Assembly (NCBI GenBank): GCA_903830285.1
Contig: CAIKTE010000153.1
Span: forward strand, 1 to 64,000
Reading direction: 5' to 3'
Length of the DNA stretch: 64,000 nt
DNA from: an uncultured Chitinophagaceae bacterium
GTDB taxonomy: Bacteria; Bacteroidota; Bacteroidia; Chitinophagales; Chitinophagaceae
Positions 27,624-37,231 of the stretch are shown here, piece by piece (within the stretch, counting starts at the first letter, position 1; every line of letters starts with the position of its first letter). The notes under the pieces are model-generated. The model worked only from the letters and a program-made list of their open reading frames with translations, was not told the DNA's origin and searched no databases. Position numbers and translations under genes: made by a program.

Positions 27624-27637
27624 AACCGGTACCGGTT
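27624..27637 (-). terminator. terminator of the ApbE/DUF3570 operon
   Basis: The palindrome AACCGGTACCGGTT overlaps the stop codon of the last DUF3570 gene and is followed on the minus strand by a T-run (TTTTTTTGAAAGG). It is short but well placed at the end of the five-gene operon. Confidence 0.55.
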
Positions 27638-28877
27638 ATCGTTTAAACGAAAAGTTGAATGAAATAATGTTAGAGTTTAAGTCAGTTGTTTGGGTATAAT
27701 GTCCATACCTTATTTCCAAAGAACTTATGGCAGATTTCCAAACACCTCCTGGTGGAGCTGTTCGAATTCCTACGCCAAAATAATTACTGCTAAATGCAGA
27801 ATACGCATAGTTGCTTGTGTAATAAGTGTCTTTTGCCGTATGCCCTTCATAAGGTGAGAAGTATTTTGCAGCTGTTTGCGTATAATATCTGTAGAACGGT
27901 GAAACAGAAAGGAATGGCGTTATTTTAATTGGGACTTCTATACTTGCCGTATGTGCAGTTATTCCCCAATCATCCGTATAATATCTGTAATAAGTTCTCA
28001 AAATAACATTCTCGCTTAGGAAAAAATTCAACCGAAATCCAACAGGTAGTTTAAACCGCAGGTTGGGTAAATTTTCTACATGAACAGTTCCATCAGCAAA
28101 ATAGACCCTGTGAAAAGGCAATGATAATAAACCATTTTGAGCTACAGCATCCAGCAATAAACTTCCCTGAATACTCTTATTCACGATTTGAGAATATGCA
28201 AGAGAGCCTGTGTAGGTATATCTTGGTGACGAAGGAATAGAACTGCTACCACCACCACTACTGGCTGATGTAACTGCCTGTGCTGTTACCGGTCTTAATT
28301 CTGAAGGATATATCAATTTCACTTTATCGAAGTAGGCTGTTATTTTAGTACTTAGTTCACCCCCATGTCCAATTTTATGAGAATAGTTGGCATCTATTCC
28401 AAATGAATGATAATTAAATTCTGAAGAATAATATAGTCCGATCCCTTTTATTGTCCCTTTCTTATTTTCTTCAGAATAATTGATGTAAGGGTATACTCTT
28501 GTTCCACCGGTATTGGATGCTCCGCTTTTATTTACATAAGCTGATGATGCGGCGGTGTGATAATCAATCCCCAACCCTGCAGTAAGTGTGTACTTATACC
28601 CATCTAAATCGCTTCCAGTAAACTTGAGATCGATGCCATTGGATATATCAGTAACCTTCTCTGTACCTATGCCTCCGGTCACGGCCGAGTGATCACCATT
28701 TTGATGATAATAACTCGAAACAAGATTTATTTCATCCAGACTCAAAGGTTTTTCTATGTATGTCGGTGCCTCATCTTTTACAACCGCTTTTGTTGAATCC
28801 TTTTTAACAGCGGACTGAGAAAAAGCATGAAGTAACAATAGATAAAGTCCTATAACTGTTAAGCAAATTCTTTTCAT
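27636..28877 (-). CDS. DUF3570 outer-membrane-type protein, paralogue 2
   Basis: 413 aa with a signal peptide (ICLTVIGLYLLLLHAFSQ) and a long series of amphipathic beta-strands (KYTLTAGLGIDYHTA, FRLNFFLSENVILRTYYRYY, TASIEVPIKITPFLSVSPFY), ending in a barrel-type strand (IISFNFSFKR). The family-typical segment near the N-terminus is HSAVTGGIGTEKVTD. It is a close paralogue of the next upstream gene (84 bp away), clearly a tandem duplication. DUF3570 genes recur beside DUF4266 and ApbE genes, and their function is unknown. Last gene of the operon 31882-27636. Confidence 0.88.
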   Translation of the reverse strand: MKRICLTVIGLYLLLLHAFSQSAVKKDSTKAVVKDEAPTYIEKPLSLDEINLVSSYYHQNGDHSAVTGGIGTEKVTDISNGIDLKFTGSDLDGYKYTLTAGLGIDYHTAASSAYVNKSGASNTGGTRVYPYINYSEENKKGTIKGIGLYYSSEFNYHSFGIDANYSHKIGHGGELSTKITAYFDKVKLIYPSELRPVTAQAVTSASSGGGSSSIPSSPRYTYTGSLAYSQIVNKSIQGSLLLDAVAQNGLLSLPFHRVYFADGTVHVENLPNLRFKLPVGFRLNFFLSENVILRTYYRYYTDDWGITAHTASIEVPIKITPFLSVSPFYRYYTQTAAKYFSPYEGHTAKDTYYTSNYAYSAFSSNYFGVGIRTAPPGGVWKSAISSLEIRYGHYTQTTDLNSNIISFNFSFKR

Positions 28878-28961
28878 GTTGATGATGCTTTATATCCAAT
28901 ACTATTTGCCCATATCATGTTTATTTGATGCACAAAACATGAATTGCAAAAAGTAAATCAA

Positions 28962-30239
28962 TTATTTAAATTTTAGTTCAAAGGAGATCACATCCGAAAC
29001 GAGATCTGTTGTTTGCGAATAATGTCCGTATCTCATTTCTAATGAATTCAGGTTCTGCCAGCCAAATACTCCTTTGGGCGGTGCGATCCTGAACCCCATA
29101 CCAAAGAAATTGCTTTGAAAAGCCGCTAATGAATAATTGCTGGTATAATACTGTTCATTGGCATTATGCATTCCATAAGGCGCAAAATATTTTGCTGCTG
29201 TTTGCTGATAATACCGGTAAAATGGAGAGATCGAAAAGAAGGGTGTTATTTTAATCGGGACCTCCAGACTTGCAGTATGCGAGGTTATTCCCCAATCATC
29301 CATATAGTATCTGTAATAGGTTCTGACAATAATTTTATCCCCCATAAAATAATTCAAGCGAAAGCCAATGGGTATTTTAAATCTTGATGAGGGAAGGTTT
29401 TCGATGGTATCTTTTCCGTTAGAAAAATATACGCGGTGAAAGGGTAAGCCCAGATATCCGTTCTGTCCAACTACATCCAACATGAATGCCAACTGCAAAC
29501 GCTTATTCACTATCTGAGAATAAGATAATGAACCCGTAAAAGTATTTCTCGGGCTGGTAGGAAGATGTTTTTCACCACCCTTGCTAGTTGTTGTACCTCC
29601 GGTTGTCAAAGTTGTTGTTCTGCCGCTTGCAGTAGTTACTATGATCGTTCCGCTGGGTGTTACGGTAGTTACAGAAGGAGGAATAAATTCTGAAGGATAG
29701 ATCATTGTTACTTTATCAAAATAGGCTTGTGCTTTTGCACTGAATTCGCCGTTCCTGTTTTTTGTTTTTTGTGAGAAATGAATATCTGCCCCAATTGATT
29801 TGTAATTATATTCAGTTGAATAATATGAACCGATCCCAAAACTGCTTCCTTTCTTTTCATTCTCAACTGTCCAGTCAAGTGATGGATAAATTCTGCTGCC
29901 GTCGGTTTTTGAAGCACCTGTTTTAGAAACATATGCTGCTGAAGCTGAAGTATGATGATCCAAACCCAAACCTGCCAGCAAAGTATGTTTATGCTGGGTC
30001 TTGTCCCATGCAACAAATTTCAATTCAATCCCATTAGACAGATCGGTCACTTTTTCGGTACCGATCCCGCCGGTTACTGCAGAATGGTTCCCGTCCTGCT
30101 TATAATAACTGGAAACAATATCCACTTCATCCAAACGCAATGGTTTGGATTTATATGTGCTGCTGTCATTTGAAGACTGCGAAAAAGCATTGAGGAATAA
30201 AATGTATAATCCTATGACCGTTAAACAGATTTTTTTCAT
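28962..30239 (-). CDS. DUF3570 outer-membrane-type protein, paralogue 1
   Basis: 425 aa, signal peptide (ICLTVIGLYILFLNAFSQ). Same layout and motifs as the downstream paralogue: HSAVTGGIGTEKVTDLSNGI, TLLAGLGLDHHTSASAAYVS, FRLNYFMGDKIIVRTYYRYY and a C-terminal strand (VISFELKFK). An inserted Thr/Ser/Gly-rich loop (PSGTIIVTTASGRTTTLTTG, residues ~208-227) is not matched in the paralogue. It is probably a beta-barrel. It lies 29 bp downstream of the DUF4266 gene. Confidence 0.88.
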   Translation of the reverse strand: MKKICLTVIGLYILFLNAFSQSSNDSSTYKSKPLRLDEVDIVSSYYKQDGNHSAVTGGIGTEKVTDLSNGIELKFVAWDKTQHKHTLLAGLGLDHHTSASAAYVSKTGASKTDGSRIYPSLDWTVENEKKGSSFGIGSYYSTEYNYKSIGADIHFSQKTKNRNGEFSAKAQAYFDKVTMIYPSEFIPPSVTTVTPSGTIIVTTASGRTTTLTTGGTTTSKGGEKHLPTSPRNTFTGSLSYSQIVNKRLQLAFMLDVVGQNGYLGLPFHRVYFSNGKDTIENLPSSRFKIPIGFRLNYFMGDKIIVRTYYRYYMDDWGITSHTASLEVPIKITPFFSISPFYRYYQQTAAKYFAPYGMHNANEQYYTSNYSLAAFQSNFFGMGFRIAPPKGVFGWQNLNSLEMRYGHYSQTTDLVSDVISFELKFK

Positions 30240-30268
30240 GTTGATCTGATTCTGATAGTTCGAATAAA

Positions 30269-30493
30269 TTAGTTACAACCGCAACCGCCGCCGGTCTTAC
30301 CACCATTGGCTCCGGAAGCACCTTCACGGTAAGATTGAAAATTCAATTCGTTCTTTTCAACCTTTCTGTTTGACAATGCCATTTCAGAATCATTCAATTT
30401 GTTCTTTTGATACTCTTTTACGTTTACGCAGGAAGTAAGTGAAGCAATAAATAATATTGCTGATACCGTTTTAATCAAGGGTTGCTTTTTCAT
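30269..30493 (-). CDS. DUF4266 small lipoprotein with C-terminal GGGCGCN
   Basis: 74 aa from the ATG at 30493 (MKKQPLIKTVSAILFIASLTSC: a lipoprotein signal with Cys at residue 22). The mature part is only ~53 residues and ends EGASGANGGKTGGGCGCN. From memory, an EGASGG-x-G-GGGCGCN tail is the hallmark of DUF4266 proteins in other phyla too. The two terminal cysteines could bind a metal or be a substrate for the neighbouring thioredoxin-like protein. The SGA in the tail recalls the flavinylation context of ApbE clients, but that is speculation. The longer frame starting at 30553 overlaps apbE and is not preferred. Confidence 0.85.
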   Translation of the reverse strand: MKKQPLIKTVSAILFIASLTSCVNVKEYQKNKLNDSEMALSNRKVEKNELNFQSYREGASGANGGKTGGGCGCN

Positions 30494-30500
30494 GATAGTT

Positions 30501-31445
30501 CTATTTATTGATACGAATATTTTTTGAAGTGAACATTTTATTATCATCATCAATGATGATCACTTCTATATCTTTTATCTGATTGATCATATCTAATCCT
30601 GCCTGTACTCCCATGATCGTAACAGGCGTTGCCATTGCATCTGCTATCTCTGCATTTTTAGTGATGACCGTAACACTTTTTATTCCTGTTACGGGAAGTC
30701 CCGTTCTTGGATTTATAGTGTGCGAATATTTTTTCCCATCTATAAGGATATACTTTTCATAGTTGCCCGATGTTGCAACAGCCAGACCAGTTATTTTCAT
30801 AAAAGAAAATACCTGGTCTTTTATATTCGGATTGGCAATACCAATGGTCCACTCTTCGCCATTCGGCTGAAATCCCCATGCAGTAAGATCTCCGGATGCA
30901 TTCACAATGCCACTTTCAACACCCATTTCCTGCATGACCTTCTTTGCCATTTCTGCTGCATACCCTTTACCGATTCCTCCAAAACCAATACGCATTCCTT
31001 TTTCTTTCAGCAAAACTGTTTTCCTTTCATTATCTAATATGATATTCCTGTAATTGATCAAACGAACCATTGCTTTCGCCGTTTCTTTATCAGGTAAAGC
31101 CTTCATATTCGTATCAAAATTCCAGAGGCTTTTATCGATCGAACCATAACTGATATCAAAAGCGCCTTGTGTAATATTTGAAATTCTGATGGAACGTTCT
31201 ATTAATTGAAATGTTTCATCACATACTTCAACTGCTTCGATCCCAGCATTCCGATTGATCAGGTTTGTTTCGCTATTATCGTTGTAAGTCGTTAATAGTT
31301 TTTCAATTCTTTTTATTTCATTGACAGCTGCATCGATTCTTGTGTTAGCCCAACTCTCCTCCTCAGCTACGGCGCTGATCTCAAAATGGTTGCCCATTAA
31401 TTTTGTGCCTATCTTAAATACTTGCTTTGGTTTCATGCAAATCAT
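30501..31445 (-). CDS. apbE: FAD:protein FMN transferase (ApbE family)
   Basis: A 314-aa enzyme of the family that transfers FMN from FAD to Ser/Thr of target proteins. Family segments are GTKLMGNHFEIS, GAFDISYGSIDKSLW, IGFGGIGKGYAAEMAKKVM, SGIVNASGDLTAWG, LAVATSGNYEKY, YSHTINPRTGLPVTG and ADAMATPVTIMG. The ATG overlaps the thioredoxin stop (ATGA), so translation is coupled. No signal peptide is visible (MICMKPKQVFKIGTKLM), whereas ApbE proteins are usually exported lipoproteins, so the reaction may be cytoplasmic here. Confidence 0.93.
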   Translation of the reverse strand: MICMKPKQVFKIGTKLMGNHFEISAVAEEESWANTRIDAAVNEIKRIEKLLTTYNDNSETNLINRNAGIEAVEVCDETFQLIERSIRISNITQGAFDISYGSIDKSLWNFDTNMKALPDKETAKAMVRLINYRNIILDNERKTVLLKEKGMRIGFGGIGKGYAAEMAKKVMQEMGVESGIVNASGDLTAWGFQPNGEEWTIGIANPNIKDQVFSFMKITGLAVATSGNYEKYILIDGKKYSHTINPRTGLPVTGIKSVTVITKNAEIADAMATPVTIMGVQAGLDMINQIKDIEVIIIDDDNKMFTSKNIRINK

Positions 31446-31882
31446 TTATCGGCATCAATGACAGATCTCATTTCTTCCACAAACTGATCAGCTGTTATTT
31501 TAGGAAAGCCTTCCCACTGTTTCAATACTTTGCCATTTTCATTTAGTAAAACCGTAAATGGAAAACTGCCTTTAGAATTATATTGGTCTGCAATGGCATC
31601 ATTTATTTTTTGCTGGTTTGCAGGCAATTGATTTTTCTTAAGCCTTGGAAAATCTGCATTTACCAAAACAAGGCTGGTTTCAGCAAATTGCTGAAACTGT
31701 TCGCTGTCAAAAATCTCTTTGTGCAATCTGATGCAAGGACCACACCAATCCGAGCCCGAAAAATTAAGAAGGATATGTTTATGCTCTTTTTGAGCAAGTG
31801 TTTTTGCCTCATCCAACGTTTTATGCCAACCCGTGAAAGACATAAAAAAAAGCGATATACATAATAAAAGGCTTGTTCTCAT
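31442..31882 (-). CDS. exported thioredoxin-fold protein
   Basis: 146 aa with a signal peptide (SLLLCISLFFMSFTGWHK) and a thioredoxin fold. The active site is SGSDWCGPCIRLHKEIF (CGPC), and the cis-Pro region is SFPFTVLLNENGKVLKQWEG. It belongs to the 'thioredoxin family / DUF255-like' group that acts as periplasmic reductases. First gene of the operon with apbE, DUF4266 and two DUF3570 genes, overlapping apbE by 4 bp. Its likely targets are the two cysteines of the DUF4266 lipoprotein, which is an inference from co-location. Confidence 0.9.
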   Translation of the reverse strand: MRTSLLLCISLFFMSFTGWHKTLDEAKTLAQKEHKHILLNFSGSDWCGPCIRLHKEIFDSEQFQQFAETSLVLVNADFPRLKKNQLPANQQKINDAIADQYNSKGSFPFTVLLNENGKVLKQWEGFPKITADQFVEEMRSVIDADK

Positions 31883-32201: not shown

Positions 32202-34493
32202 TTACTGAAAGGCAATACCCACTTTTCGTTCTGTAAGTCTGTCTTTTATCTCATCCAGAATTGCCGGATCATCAATGGTTGAAGGAACAGTGAATGGTGC
32301 TCCATCTGCCATCATACGCATGGTCTTACGCAAGATCTTACCACTTCTTGTTTTCGGTAATCGTTTCACCAATAATGCATTTCTGAAGTATGCAACCGCA
32401 CCGATCTGATCTCTTACCAATTGCACCAATTCATTTTCCAGTTCCAATTCTTCATTATGGTGATTATCCTTCATCACTAATAAACCAATGGGTCTTTGTC
32501 CGCGTAACTCATCCGCAATACCGATCACTGCACATTCTGCAATGGCAGGGTGGCGGGCTATAATTTCTTCCATTTCGCCGGTGCTTAAACGATGACCGGC
32601 AACATTGATCACATCATCGATCCTTCCCATGATAAAGAAATAACCTTCTTTATCTAAATGACCGCCATCACCTGTTAAATAGTATCCCGGAAAATGATAG
32701 AGATAAGATTCCTTGAACCATTCGTCATTTTTCCATAAAGTAGGTAAGCATCCCGGAGGTAATGGTAATTTAACGGCAACAAAACCTTCTTCATTATCTA
32801 CCGTGATCACTGATCCGTCATCTTCCAATATTCTCACATCGAATCCGCAAATAGGTTTACCGGCGCTTCCTGCTTTTGCAGGCATTTGTTCAATGCCTGT
32901 CATGATGCCCAACATCGGCCAGCCGCTTTCTGTTTGCCACCAATGATCGATAACCGGGATTTGCAAAAGATCATTCACCCAGTGATAGGTTGCGGGATCG
33001 CAGCGCTCTCCTGCAAGGAATAATGTTTTAAGATGTGAGAGATCTTTATTCTTCATCAATAAGCCATCGGCATCTTCTTTTTTAATGGCACGAATAGCAG
33101 TGGGTGCCGTGAACATGGCTTTTACTTTATGTTCAGCTGCCACACGCCAGAATTCGCCTGCATCAGGCGTTCTTACCGGTTTCCCTTCAAATAAGATAGT
33201 ACTGCATCCCTGGATCAACGGTGCATAAACAATATAACTATGACCAACAACCCAGCCCACATCACTGGCTGCCCAGAACACATCACCTGCTTCAACATTG
33301 TAAATATTTTTCATGCTGTATTTTAATGCAACAGCATAACCACCCGTATCTCTAACAATGCCTTTAGGTTTACCCGTTGTACCGGAAGTATATAATACAT
33401 ACAGTGGATCGGTTGATAGTAATGATACATAATCCGCCGGAGCTGATCTTTGCATGAGTTCCTGCATATCAATATCTCTTTCATTGCTCATCTCCGATGA
33501 TAATCCTTCTCGCTGATAAATGATCACATGTGCAGGTTTATGAAATGCTTCCATGATAGCATGATCCACCAATGGTTTATACGCAATGCGTTTATCAAAT
33601 TCGATCCCATAAGATGCGGAAATGATCGCCTTTGGTTCGGCATCATCAATTCGGATGGATAATTCATGAGGTGCAAATCCGCCAAATACCACAGAATGAA
33701 TGGCACCGATCCTTGCACATGCCAGCATTGAAATAACAGCCTGTGGGATCATGGGCATATAAACAACTACGGTATCGCCTTTACCGATCCCCAATTCCTG
33801 TAAACCTCCGGCAAGTTTGGCCACTTCATCACGCAGCTCAATGAAATTATATTTGCGGATAGTTTTTGTTACGGGTGAATCATAGATCAATGCCGTTTGT
33901 TCGCCCCTGCCTTCTTCAATATGATAATCCAGGCATAAATATGAAATATTCAATTTCCCATCTTCATACCATCTATATAAACCTTGGTCGTTTTTATTTA
34001 AGATGGTTTTAGGGAATTCGAACCATTTAATATGTCTTGCCTGTTCTGTCCAGAATTCAACCGGCTTTGCAATACTTTTTTTATACTCTGTTTCATAAGC
34101 CAGCTTTACAACAAGTTCAGATTTATTGAGCAGGTCATTTACCTGTTGCATTAAATTCTTTGTGCTGAATGGTTTGCTGATATATAATTCCGCCCCGAGA
34201 TCATATCCCTTTTTAATATCTGCTTCTTTTGTTTTGGCAGAGAGGAAAACAACTTTGCAATGTTCTAAAGACGGGGTACGTTTGATGTACTCACAAATGG
34301 CATATCCATCCACATCGGGCATCATGATATCGAGCAATATCAGATCAGGCATATATTGATTCACTGCACTGAGAGCTTCGGATCCATTGCGTGCGATCAT
34401 GACCTGGTAGCCGCTTTTCTTCATTAAAAACTCGAGCGACATTAATATATACGGATCATCGTCTACCACTAAAACTTTGTGTTGTGAGTTCAT
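32202..34493 (-). CDS. response-regulator receiver domain fused to propionyl-CoA synthetase-type enzyme
   Basis: 763 aa in one uninterrupted frame. Residues 1-125 are a complete receiver: acidic pair Asp11/Asp12 (VLVVDDDPY), phospho-acceptor Asp55 (LILLDIMMPDVDGY), Ser85 and Lys107 (YISKPFS). After a short linker, residues ~133-763 are a full-length AMP-forming acyl-CoA synthetase. Its N-domain begins FWTEQARHIKWF; the P-loop is YVLYTSGTTGKPKGIV; then come GDVFWAASDVGWVVGHSYIV, HWWQTESGWP, YLTGDGGHLDKEGYF, RIDDVINVAGHRLS and the catalytic-Lys end RLPKTRSGKILRK. VRDTGGYAVALKYSMKNIY is typical of PrpE/ACSS3 rather than Acs. There is no DNA-binding domain. It starts 11 bp after the sensor-kinase stop. 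I infer phosphorylation-controlled acyl-CoA synthesis. Confidence 0.93.
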   Translation of the reverse strand: MNSQHKVLVVDDDPYILMSLEFLMKKSGYQVMIARNGSEALSAVNQYMPDLILLDIMMPDVDGYAICEYIKRTPSLEHCKVVFLSAKTKEADIKKGYDLGAELYISKPFSTKNLMQQVNDLLNKSELVVKLAYETEYKKSIAKPVEFWTEQARHIKWFEFPKTILNKNDQGLYRWYEDGKLNISYLCLDYHIEEGRGEQTALIYDSPVTKTIRKYNFIELRDEVAKLAGGLQELGIGKGDTVVVYMPMIPQAVISMLACARIGAIHSVVFGGFAPHELSIRIDDAEPKAIISASYGIEFDKRIAYKPLVDHAIMEAFHKPAHVIIYQREGLSSEMSNERDIDMQELMQRSAPADYVSLLSTDPLYVLYTSGTTGKPKGIVRDTGGYAVALKYSMKNIYNVEAGDVFWAASDVGWVVGHSYIVYAPLIQGCSTILFEGKPVRTPDAGEFWRVAAEHKVKAMFTAPTAIRAIKKEDADGLLMKNKDLSHLKTLFLAGERCDPATYHWVNDLLQIPVIDHWWQTESGWPMLGIMTGIEQMPAKAGSAGKPICGFDVRILEDDGSVITVDNEEGFVAVKLPLPPGCLPTLWKNDEWFKESYLYHFPGYYLTGDGGHLDKEGYFFIMGRIDDVINVAGHRLSTGEMEEIIARHPAIAECAVIGIADELRGQRPIGLLVMKDNHHNEELELENELVQLVRDQIGAVAYFRNALLVKRLPKTRSGKILRKTMRMMADGAPFTVPSTIDDPAILDEIKDRLTERKVGIAFQ

Positions 34494-34504: not shown

Positions 34505-37231
34505 TTAAGAGTTTGGATATGTTGTTTGATGCGGTATTTCTACAATAAAATTGGCCCCCTTACCTTCTACACTTTCCACCCATATTTTTCCCTGATGCAT
34601 TTCTACAATTCTTTTACAGATCGCTAATCCCAGTCCGCTGCCTTCGGGTTTTTTCAATGTTTGATTTTTGGCCTGAAAGAATTTATCGAAAATGAGTTCA
34701 TGTAATTCGGCAGGGATCCCTAAACCATCATCCTTCACAGAAATGCGATAGATATTGTTATGATAAAATGCATCTATCTCAATATTTTTCTTGGCATGTT
34801 TAATGGCATTGGAAGTTAAATTATAAAACACCTGTGAGATGAGATCGATATCGCCTTCCATCAAAGGCATTAATGTTTGCAGATTAAAATGTAAATGCAA
34901 TTGTTTTTCTTTCAATAATTGCTTGGCGCTATCTTCAATTTCGTACAATACTTCTGCAATATCGATGGCAGTTAGATTCAATTTCGATCTGCCGCTTTCA
35001 TAACGTTCCAGATTCAATACCTGTGTGATCAAGTGGCTCAATCTTTCTGTTTCTTTGATGATGGCACCCAGATATTCATTCTTTTGTTGATCAGGTATAT
35101 CGGGATTATCATGAACAATTTCACTTAATGCACGGATAGAAGTTAAAGGTGTACGTAACTCATGCGTAACAGTATACAGGAATTCATCCTTCATTTCATC
35201 GATCTGTTTCAATTGCTGATTCGCGATGCGTAATTCTTCTGTGGCTTTGCTTAATTCGATCGATTTTCTGCGCAGTTCTTTATTTGTTTCTTTCACGATC
35301 TGGCTTTCACGCAAAATATTCAGCACTTCATCGATACTCAATTCTTCTTCTTTCACAACACTCTTTACCATGATACGCGCAGAAGCAGAGCCGATAGCAC
35401 CTGCGAGCATTCGTTCTGCAAAATTCACTAAAGCCGGTTCGGCTTTTCCAGATTCATTCAAATTAATATTATGTCTTCGGGCATACCCCTGTAATAATTG
35501 ATTGGTCCTTTCAGTGCCGATAAAATTATATAGCAATGTTTTCAGATCGGGTATATAAGCTGTTCCTTTCCAGATCACCGAACCTTCTGAAGCCTGTGTT
35601 GAATGTTTATACACATCTACAAACATTTCTGCCTGATACACTTCCTGCGATCTTCTTTCTGTGAATAAAGAAATCCCGATAAAAAAAATGGTATTGAGAA
35701 AAAGGCTCCAGAAGAAACCATGTGTCACAGCATCAAAACCATTCATGCCAAACAGTGCCAATGGTTTTAAAAAGTGAAGATGAAATAATCCATCATTTAA
35801 AATAGAATCACCAATGATGCCCGCGCCTACTATGTAGGGAATGACCAATGTATAGAACCAGACAACAAAGCCGATCAAAATAGCCGTGAGTGCTGCATTC
35901 TTATTGGCCTGTTTCCAATATATCCCGCCAATGATGGCCGGTGCAAATTGTGCCACTGCAGTAAATGATACCAATCCGATCGACACAAGTGAATATTTTT
36001 CTGCGATCGTTCTGTCATACACATACGCCAATAAAATAATTACTATGATGCTCAGTCGTCTGCTGTTGATGATGAAGCTTCGTATATTTTTATCTAAATT
36101 TTTCTTGAATGATGATGAAAGTGACAATAAAGTGGGCATCACTATATTGTTACTGATCATGGTACTTAATGCGATCGTTTCAACAATGATCATACTGCTT
36201 GCTGCAGAAAATCCGCCGATATACACCATCACCGTTAACCAGGTTTTATGTGCCTGCAGTGGTAATGCCAAGACATACGTATCGGCATTTACGGGTTGTC
36301 CGCTGAAAATAATCGAACCGCCAAAAGCAATGGGGATCACGAATATATTGATCACAAATAAATACAAAGGAAACAACCACATGGCTTTATTTAAATCCTG
36401 TTCCTGCACATTTTCAACAACAGATATCTGAAATTGTCTGGGAAGAAACAATACGGCCAGCATAGATAGAAGCATCATGGCGAACATCTGGACATACATA
36501 TTGCTATCATGTACAGTGAACAGTTTTTGAAGAGATGGAATTTGTTCAGCTCTGTGCATCACGTCTCCGAAACCATTGAATAAAAAATAAGTAACGAATA
36601 TTCCTGCCACTATGAAAGCAACAATTTTAATGATAGATTCAAATGCAATGGCGGCAACCATTCCTTCATGCTTCTCTGTTGCATCCACACTTCTTGTCCC
36701 GAAAAATATTACGAATACCGAAAGGCCGATCGCGATATATAATGTATTGTCTTTTAAAATATTTGCCCCTGTTTGCAAAGCACGTGCATTGCCTGTTACT
36801 ATTTCAATACTGCTGCTGATGGCTTTTAATTGAATGGCGATATAGGGTATGATCCCGATCACACATAACAATGTGACCACAATACCGAGTGAAATGTTTT
36901 TTCCATACCGTGTAGAAATAAAATCTGCAATGCTTGTAATACGTTGCATTTTGGAAATGCGGATGATCTTTCGCAATAAAAGCCAGAACAATGGGGCCAT
37001 TAGGGTTGGACCCAGATAAATAAATAAAAACTCAATGCCTGTAGCAGTGGCGCGTCCTACACTTCCAAAAAAAGTCCATGCCGTGCAGTATACAGCCAAT
37101 GACAATGCATAGATGTATGGGTTATTGATGATGCTCTTTTTTCGGGTTGCTCGGTATTCGGCATAATACCCTACTCCAAATAGAAGCAAGAGGTATAATA
37201 CAGAAAATATGATCACCAGATAGTTACTCAT
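34505..37231 (-). CDS. solute:sodium symporter-STAC-histidine kinase (CbrA/CrbS type)
   Basis: 908 aa. Residues 1-~520 form an SLC5/SSS-type symporter with about 13 membrane segments (AVYCTAWTFFGSVGRATATG, TSIADFISTRYGKNISLG, QFQISVVENVQEQDLNKAMW). Residues ~555-640 are a STAC domain (WKGTAYIPDLKTLLYNFIG ... FAERMLAGAIGSASARIM). A coiled coil follows, then HisKA with His690 (THELRTPLTSIRALSEI). HATPase_c has N-box NLTSNAIKHA (~804), DDGLGIP (~834) and GSGLGLAI (~864). CbrA and CrbS proteins have this layout; CrbS controls acs in Vibrio and Pseudomonas. The substrate is probably a small organic acid. Its N-terminus overlaps the small membrane gene upstream and its cognate partner is probably the receiver of the next gene. 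Confidence 0.94.
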   Translation of the reverse strand: MSNYLVIIFSVLYLLLLFGVGYYAEYRATRKKSIINNPYIYALSLAVYCTAWTFFGSVGRATATGIEFLFIYLGPTLMAPLFWLLLRKIIRISKMQRITSIADFISTRYGKNISLGIVVTLLCVIGIIPYIAIQLKAISSSIEIVTGNARALQTGANILKDNTLYIAIGLSVFVIFFGTRSVDATEKHEGMVAAIAFESIIKIVAFIVAGIFVTYFLFNGFGDVMHRAEQIPSLQKLFTVHDSNMYVQMFAMMLLSMLAVLFLPRQFQISVVENVQEQDLNKAMWLFPLYLFVINIFVIPIAFGGSIIFSGQPVNADTYVLALPLQAHKTWLTVMVYIGGFSAASSMIIVETIALSTMISNNIVMPTLLSLSSSFKKNLDKNIRSFIINSRRLSIIVIILLAYVYDRTIAEKYSLVSIGLVSFTAVAQFAPAIIGGIYWKQANKNAALTAILIGFVVWFYTLVIPYIVGAGIIGDSILNDGLFHLHFLKPLALFGMNGFDAVTHGFFWSLFLNTIFFIGISLFTERRSQEVYQAEMFVDVYKHSTQASEGSVIWKGTAYIPDLKTLLYNFIGTERTNQLLQGYARRHNINLNESGKAEPALVNFAERMLAGAIGSASARIMVKSVVKEEELSIDEVLNILRESQIVKETNKELRRKSIELSKATEELRIANQQLKQIDEMKDEFLYTVTHELRTPLTSIRALSEIVHDNPDIPDQQKNEYLGAIIKETERLSHLITQVLNLERYESGRSKLNLTAIDIAEVLYEIEDSAKQLLKEKQLHLHFNLQTLMPLMEGDIDLISQVFYNLTSNAIKHAKKNIEIDAFYHNNIYRISVKDDGLGIPAELHELIFDKFFQAKNQTLKKPEGSGLGLAICKRIVEMHQGKIWVESVEGKGANFIVEIPHQTTYPNS

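Follow-up and report, generated by a model that had tools for sequence, protein, structure and literature searches.

In the NQR, RNF and FMN_bind systems, flavin mononucleotide (FMN) installed by the transferase ApbE serves as an electron carrier of the cell envelope. A further set of ApbE-containing gene clusters was described by Meheust et al. (2021; PMC8238504, cited here from the sections available to us), in which the DUF3570 protein of Chlorobium luteolum was flavinylated by its ApbE, at two [S/T]GA[S/T] motifs, in Escherichia coli. That work reports 285 clusters with DsbD, typically accompanied by ApbE, DUF3570 (227), a thioredoxin-like protein (183) and DUF4266 (221), together with 316 clusters that hold ApbE, DUF3570, a thioredoxin-like protein and DUF4266 without DsbD; it proposes that DsbD feeds electrons to the thioredoxin-like/flavin system, and that a CXC pair in the tail of DUF4266 may undergo redox cycling. 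Here we analyze a five-gene operon of this kind, encoding a thioredoxin-like protein, an ApbE, a DUF4266 lipoprotein and two DUF3570 proteins (DUF3570a and DUF3570b), in a 64,000-nucleotide stretch of DNA from an uncultured Chitinophagaceae bacterium (assembly GCA_903830285.1, contig CAIKTE010000153.1, positions 1 to 64,000; the whole stretch is referred to as the window). We predict, with a probability of roughly 0.55, that the operon produces a thiol-fed, covalently flavinylated outer-membrane redox protein.

Judged by its genes, the window operon is the published four-family cluster type without DsbD, as that type is presented in the available sections of PMC8238504. The initial annotation of the stretch had treated the system as uncharacterised, a description that, with the gene set already in print, holds for physiological function only. 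Relative to the published clusters, the window carries two DUF3570 genes in tandem, a candidate third flavinylation site and an ApbE without an export signal, the last of which we did not find in the available sections of that paper; relative to NQR, RNF and FMN_bind systems, the predicted carrier is a β-barrel, the ApbE has no export signal and the genome yields no FMN_bind or NqrB/RnfD match. The cytosolic ApbE of Klebsiella pneumoniae likewise lacks a signal peptide, but its target is a soluble fumarate reductase (PMC12052999, in the parts available), whereas the only known-type target found in the window genome carries a signal peptide. In the open-licence literature, DUF3570 and DUF4266 turned up only in Meheust et al. 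(2021), and nothing on topic was found there for flavinylated barrels or for extracellular electron transfer in Bacteroidetes; the available parts of a 2025 ApbE review (PMC12052999) and a 2024 flavinylation paper (PMC11334425) do not mention DUF3570. Within the available text of the literature searched, we found no mention of the signal-less ApbE, the third site or the extracellular loop placement described below.

The operon ApbE lacks an export signal

Comparisons drew on 99 genomes, the window genome included, and on a synteny sample of 136 loci encoding a DUF3570 of 300 aa or more, in which 30 fetched loci were found through DUF4266 and thus bias the sample for the DUF4266-DUF3570 pair. 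Export signals were scored by a hydropathy rule (mean of at least 1.9 over a 10-residue window) rather than by SignalP. By this rule, the window ApbE has neither a signal peptide nor a lipobox, unlike the usual exported ApbE lipoprotein of Gram-negative bacteria; 15 residues (MICMKPKQVFKIGTK), with no hydrophobic stretch, precede the first conserved strand, LMGN, of a protein that matches 7esa and other solved FMN transferases. The partners of ApbE behave differently, in that a hydrophobic N-terminus is present in 110 of 111 thioredoxins, 134 of 136 DUF4266 proteins and 148 of 154 DUF3570 proteins, but in only 17 of 124 ApbE open reading frames (ORFs). After three entries were left out (the unrelated second ORF of L113, the partial L089 and L117, a copy of L034), 105 of 121 cluster ApbE rows (119 different sequences), that of the window among them, lack a hydrophobic N-terminus; one of these (L144) is cut by a contig start, making 104 the safe count, and another (L074) proved on re-reading to have no signal peptide. 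On the ApbE tree the signal label needs three changes, with 96 signal-less rows falling in one starred clade, and the window ApbE lies closest to those of its own genus and then of Ferruginibacter.

Stand-alone ApbEs from the same 99 genomes served as controls. These comprised 51 of the 52 matches outside clusters (the omitted one being below cut-off), reduced to 50 by one locus (L232) in which the profile recognised no ApbE frame; a hydrophobic N-terminus is present in 49 of the 50, and the remaining one (L220) is cut by a contig end. In 13 of the 29 genomes that encode DUF3570, the sole ApbE is a signal-less one located in or near the cluster (about 1.9 kb upstream in G034), and one of these 13 (G008) is a single-contig, 100% complete assembly. 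The window genome assembly (98.9% complete, 384 contigs) likewise has a single ApbE match, alongside two DUF3570 proteins. No match to FMN_bind or NqrB/RnfD was found in that assembly, by searches that each rang in 4 of 14 control genomes, and none to DUF2271, for which some of the 14 did ring; the DUF3570 proteins are thus the only ApbE targets of a known type found there.

A frameshifted thioredoxin-ApbE fusion was considered as a route for ApbE export and rejected. Signal-less ApbEs also occur where they do not follow the thioredoxin, either because ApbE precedes it (L051, L074, L078) or because the thioredoxin comes last (L068, L070, L082, L084, L093, L106, L108); in the window itself, an in-frame TAA directly 5' of the ApbE ATG disfavours such a fusion.

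Two readings are left: either a cytosolic enzyme flavinylates DUF3570 before export, or DUF3570 is not flavinylated in genomes whose sole ApbE is signal-less. We prefer the first, because Ala99 and Ser100 of DUF3570a, at the end of a putative flavinylation motif, are invariant across 57 aligned DUF3570 rows; because, in the published sections, C. luteolum DUF3570 expressed in E. coli was mostly in the pellet yet flavinylated (PMC8238504), so that an unfolded chain can probably serve as substrate; and because ApbE needs no more than a seven-residue tag in co-expression (PMC12052999, same parts). Flavinylation, as far as the sequences indicate, probably precedes export.

Flavinylation motifs in DUF3570

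Inspection of 142 distinct DUF3570 proteins revealed a first motif, D-x-x-[ST]-x-A-S, with the final Ala-Ser in 140 and the aspartate in 134, and a second, [ST][GSAT]A[ST], in 116. In both window proteins motif 2 matches [S/T]GA[S/T] exactly (TGAS, SGAS) and motif 1, in common with the majority of the family, reads T[SA]AS and has its aspartate at -6; under the strict [S/T]GA[S/T] pattern, one of the two motifs thus fits in each window DUF3570. Section 8 of the ApbE review, in the available text, gives the consensus as D-x-x-[S/T]-G-A-[S/T], with a minor effect of changing D to A and about 50% flavinylation after changing G to A in another protein (PMC12052999).

A candidate third motif, mostly TTASG, lies in an insertion that is otherwise variable and rich in Thr, Ser and Gly. 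It is present in 59 of 90 insertions of at least 25 residues, for which 2000 within-sequence shuffles gave a mean of 7.7 and a maximum of 18, and in none of 52 short ones. Motif 3 occurs in every one of the 22 long-insertion proteins that lack motif 2, while the other 4 of the 26 proteins lacking motif 2 have a short insertion and also no motif 3. By count, this replacement of site 2 by site 3 is strong (Fisher 1e-6 for the 142 proteins, 5e-4 for 101 rows below 75% identity); relatives are not independent, however, and it is not proof of selection. On the DUF3570 tree the group that lost site 2 changes 5 times, at least 3 of them forced by starred branches, and an independent-pairs test, with too few pairs, gave a median p of 1 for all rows and 0.5 for long insertions. 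Counted with a slightly looser pattern, 94 of the 142 proteins have two sites, 42 have three and 6 have one; DUF3570a and DUF3570b have three each. We also considered a conserved metal site of three histidines on the outer loops but dropped it, as its first histidine falls outside the 90% alignment columns.

The initial annotation had suggested a covalently flavinylated or metal-binding envelope redox pathway, with DUF4266 as well as DUF3570 among the proteins to be assayed for flavin. For DUF3570 the flavin part of the suggestion is well supported by the published C. luteolum flavinylation, in the sections of PMC8238504 available, and by the retention of the sites in both paralogues; what it did not anticipate is an ApbE that itself lacks an export signal. 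DUF4266, for its part, has no known flavinylation motif. An alternative is that the signal-less ApbE modifies an unrecognised cytosolic protein, with DUF3570 here not flavinylated and the barrel and lipoprotein working separately as a thiol or transport pair. There are cytosolic ApbEs that act on cytosolic targets, as the Klebsiella enzyme described in the accessible part of PMC12052999 attests, and motif 1 of DUF3570 departs from the consensus glycine; but ApbE accompanies DUF3570 in all 29 genomes and, at most loci, within one cluster, the Ala-Ser of motif 1 is invariant in the aligned rows, site 3 is never missing from long-insertion proteins without site 2, and the window genome yielded no further target family of a known type. 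We consider this alternative very unlikely.

Barrel fold and membrane side

AlphaFold2 models both DUF3570 proteins as 16-stranded barrels (pLDDT 86.8 and predicted template-modelling score (pTM) 0.77 for DUF3570a; 85.8 and 0.79 for DUF3570b), in keeping with the two β-barrel paralogues of the initial annotation. Structural searches with DUF3570a returned outer-membrane barrels throughout the matches listed: 50 by Foldseek, at low TM-scores of 0.26-0.42, and 50 by VIA-align, with Z of at least 15.2 over approximately residues 30-425, of which the best was an integrative BamA model (Z 21.4, root-mean-square deviation 3.5, 274 residues) and the next the BcsC and 4y25 barrels (Z 19.1). A search of the DUF3570 profile against solved sequences gave no match up to E 1. 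The modelled likeness to BamA, BcsC and 4y25 is one of shared fold, not kinship.

In the DUF3570a model, motifs 1 and 2 are found where strand 3 ends and in the loop that follows, and motif 3 sits in the loop after strand 7; the DUF3570b model is in agreement. On this side both barrels have long loops plus a few short ones, whereas the seven turns at the opposite side span 2-5 residues, except for one of 10 or 11. The flavin loops of DUF3570a are of low confidence (10-residue means of 54 for residues 101-110 and 63 for residues 201-210). Barrels inserted by the β-barrel assembly machinery (BAM) keep both termini in the periplasm; because the same should hold for DUF3570, all three sites are predicted to lie on extracellular loops, a testable point that rests on the models and standard barrel topology. 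The flavins could instead face the periplasm, in which case the barrel would act as an electron sink or reductase on the periplasmic side, with no transfer across the outer membrane. Such an arrangement would suit the periplasmic thiol donors and the lipoprotein nature of DUF4266, and membrane orientation is not something that AlphaFold models specify; the location of the sites after strands 3 and 7 on the long-loop side of both models, combined with the established periplasmic position of the termini, speaks for the extracellular placement, and leaves a periplasmic one doubtful in our estimation.

Thioredoxin, DUF4266 and the source of electrons

The thioredoxin-like protein of the window has 2ju5 as its closest solved sequence (E 2e-15), and WCxPC is present in 106 of 111 members of its family. 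CGCN forms the C-terminal end, behind a Gly-rich stretch, in 123 of 128 DUF4266 proteins with distinct last 50 residues. In SoxY of the sulfur oxidation system, which is served by the DsbD-like protein and thioredoxin SoxV-SoxW, a Gly-rich C-terminal arm also ends near a cysteine; DUF4266, which may be compared with SoxY in this respect, differs in being a lipoprotein with a terminal cysteine pair. In two loci (L036, L059) the thioredoxin and ApbE form one protein behind the thioredoxin signal peptide, linking the thiol and flavin parts of the system. A single DsbD, comprising N-terminal, membrane and Thioredoxin_7 domains, is encoded in the window genome; it lies on another contig and is the sole DsbD_TM match.

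Upstream of its CGC tail, DUF4266 carries a second conserved element, YREG[AS] (30314-30331, minus strand); RE[GSA] is present in 113 of 128 proteins and YREG[ASTV] in 80. DUF4266 as a third ApbE target by way of this element was set aside, since no Ser or Thr stands at the first place of [ST]GA[ST].

Distribution and genomic context

Of the 99 genomes, 29 encode both DUF4266 and DUF3570, and the remaining 70 encode neither. Independent occurrence of the genes in other genomes had been named at the outset as part of what would speak against a joint system: these two are never apart, but ApbE, present in all 29 DUF3570 genomes, also occurs in 27 of the other 70. In a sample of the phylum, DUF3570 was found in 86 of 296 genomes and 22 of 140 genera. 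Within the synteny sample (its counts, and those of neighbours, omit L117, L132, L138 and L181), all four gene types fall into a single same-strand cluster at 98 of 136 loci, 78 of these 98 share the window's gene order for thioredoxin, ApbE, DUF4266 and one DUF3570, and DUF4266 directly precedes a DUF3570 in 130 of 136. Clustering and adjacency at these frequencies indicate that the gene array is not due to chance.

Among the best 80 of 576 DUF3570 matches, the closest relatives include proteins of Ferruginibacter, Mucilaginibacter, Chitinophaga, Puia, Pedobacter, Flavihumibacter and Flavobacterium. Along the tree, DUF3570b lies 0.35-0.37 from Ferruginibacter DUF3570 and 0.64 from DUF3570a, so the tandem pair is not a recent duplication. 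Extra DUF3570 genes stand in pieces behind an intact operon in two loci (L078, 9709-10971, plus strand; L033, 424-1667, minus strand), maybe as pseudogenes or assembly errors. In one family of the phylum sample (f37; L153, L154, L156, L180), each genome measures about 2-3 Mb and contains between 1 and 9 DUF3570 matches, with two matches falling in the same protein in some cases; at four loci the order is DUF4266, DUF3570, ApbE, and the ApbE again has no hydrophobic N-terminus.

Neighbor families were each named from one representative across the approximately 136 loci. Recurrent ones include cytochrome b561 (in 13 loci), VIT1 transporters (in 11, always on the same strand), and Rieske (8) and Haem_bd (6) proteins. 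The largest group (45 loci, both strands) looks by eye like sensor kinases; it, the ABC ATPases and similar groups point to no function. Around the window operon (24-36 kb), no named redox or metal family was noted among the ORFs read, only some of which the profile search covered. These neighbors bear on the possibility that the system handles iron or another metal, in which case the CGC tail of DUF4266 would bind metal instead of carrying electrons, and the flavins would reduce ferric iron for uptake. The VIT1 neighbors, the presence of VIT1 in 25 published clusters (PMC8238504, available sections) and the plausibility of a C-terminal CXC as a ligand pair are consistent with such a role; set against them, most of the loci examined have no VIT1, none of the ORFs read near the window operon was noted as VIT1 or another metal gene within the coverage just given, and a CXC beside a thioredoxin fits a thiol pair equally well. 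We judge metal handling of this kind unlikely.

The window also encodes a 763-aa fusion with a response-regulator receiver domain ahead of an acetyl/propionyl-CoA synthetase (32202-34493, minus strand; Response_reg 3e-29, ACAS_N 8e-17, AMP-binding 5e-71). The adjoining gene (34505-37231) is for a histidine kinase of 908 aa whose N-terminal part is long and hydrophobic. The direct joining of a two-component receiver to an acyl-CoA synthetase looks unusual.

Gene calls and operon layout

The coordinates of the operon are collected in Table 1. All five proteins score above the curated Pfam cut-offs; none is above cut-off in NCBIfam. The gene content given by the initial annotation, all on the minus strand, was confirmed, as was the coupling of the CGPC thioredoxin to ApbE through an ATGA overlap at 31442-31445. 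ApbE is parted from DUF3570a solely by the DUF4266 gene. For DUF4266, the ORF list gives 94 aa from an upstream TTG; an internal ATG at 30493 is the likely start, because it leaves a signal peptide and the lipobox LTSC, yielding 74 aa and the 53-residue mature lipoprotein ending in GGGCGCN that had been described before. A promoter scan was at chance (17 found, 16.3 expected).

Table 1. Features of the thioredoxin-ApbE-DUF4266-DUF3570 operon, in window coordinates.
Feature	Position	Strand	Basis
Thioredoxin-like protein (Thioredoxin_7), 146 aa, hydrophobic N-terminus	31442..31882	-	Pfam PF13899, 3.3e-12
CGPC of thioredoxin	31733-31744	-	sequence
ApbE FAD:protein FMN transferase, 314 aa, no signal peptide	30501..31445	-	PF02424, 1.9e-81
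DUF4266 lipoprotein, 74 aa	30269..30493	-	PF14086, 4.1e-19
DUF4266 lipobox LTSC, Cys codon	30428-30430	-	sequence
DUF4266 C-terminal CGCN behind Gly-rich tail	30272-30283	-	sequence
DUF3570a, 425 aa, predicted 16-stranded outer-membrane barrel	28962..30239	-	PF12094, 9.7e-31; AlphaFold2
DUF3570a motif 1 DHHTSAS, residues 94-100	29940..29960	-	sequence
DUF3570a motif 2 TGAS, residues 107-110	29910..29921	-	sequence
DUF3570a candidate motif 3 TTAS, residues 202-205, in insertion between residues 182 and 231	29625..29636	-	
DUF3570b, 413 aa, predicted 16-stranded barrel	27636..28877	-	PF12094, 5.7e-24; AlphaFold2
DUF3570b motif 1 DYHTAAS, residues 105-111	28545..28565	-	sequence
DUF3570b motif 2 SGAS, residues 118-121	28515..28526	-	sequence
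DUF3570b candidate motif 3 TSAS, residues 203-206	28260..28271	-	sequence
Terminator-like hairpin and T run at DUF3570b stop (weak)	27624..27637	-	5 found in region, 3.0 expected

Discussion

Sequence or model supplies the gene set, the barrel fold, two conserved ApbE-type motifs with a third candidate, a lipoprotein with a near-invariant CGCN, an ApbE that lacks an export signal and, at a separate genomic location, a complete DsbD. From these elements we would assemble the following pathway. The signal-less ApbE, using cytosolic flavin adenine dinucleotide (FAD), would attach FMN to serines of the unfolded DUF3570 chain, which would then be exported through Sec and inserted as a barrel by BAM. 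In the periplasm, DsbD would reduce the CGPC thioredoxin, which in turn would reduce the CXC pair that DUF4266 carries on its flexible Gly-rich tail; the tail may then hand electrons to the FMNs of DUF3570, for delivery to an acceptor at or beyond the outer membrane, with ferric iron as the leading guess. The thiol relay follows the published proposal, whereas the cytosolic flavinylation and the loop placement come from the present analysis, which adds three testable points: flavinylation before export, the third site and the extracellular placement.

Several points weigh against this pathway. The flavinylation, location and electron transfer of the window proteins are predictions from sequence and models, and passage of an FMN-bearing chain through SecYEG is a step that the scheme requires. 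The thiol donors are predicted to be periplasmic while the flavin loops would be on the outer face, so that the mechanism would have to bridge the two sides; DsbD, moreover, is encoded outside the operon cluster. A hydrophobic N-terminus is present in 16 of 121 cluster ApbEs, two of them thioredoxin fusions, and thus cytosolic action of ApbE is not universal; the ApbE review, in the part available, reports a periplasmic location to be essential for ApbE in a thiamine-free growth assay (PMC12052999). At the motifs themselves, motif 1 mostly has Ser or Ala at the position of the consensus glycine, and the aspartate that the consensus places at -6 is missing from most copies of motifs 2 and 3.

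A more specific version of the predicted pathway is a cell-surface flavin relay built in the cytosol, in which a dedicated cytosolic ApbE would attach two or three FMNs before export that end up on extracellular loops, the CGC tail of DUF4266 would enter the barrel from the periplasm, electrons would cross the outer membrane free of cytochromes, and selection would maintain at least two flavins, with site 3 replacing a lost site 2. We advance this version only tentatively.

The operon type was already known; what is new is that the attaching enzyme seemingly works inside the cell, before the barrel is exported. Surveys that prefilter ApbE and FMN-binding genes on signal peptides, which in the available text is one step of PMC8238504, can miss signal-less ApbEs. 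Attachment of a redox cofactor before Sec export, if true, would overturn the assumed need for an exported ApbE and an exported supply of FAD. Multi-heme cytochromes form the well-known electron conduits through the outer membrane; a barrel with covalent flavins and a thiol relay would, if true, constitute a second chemistry for the passage of electrons across this membrane.

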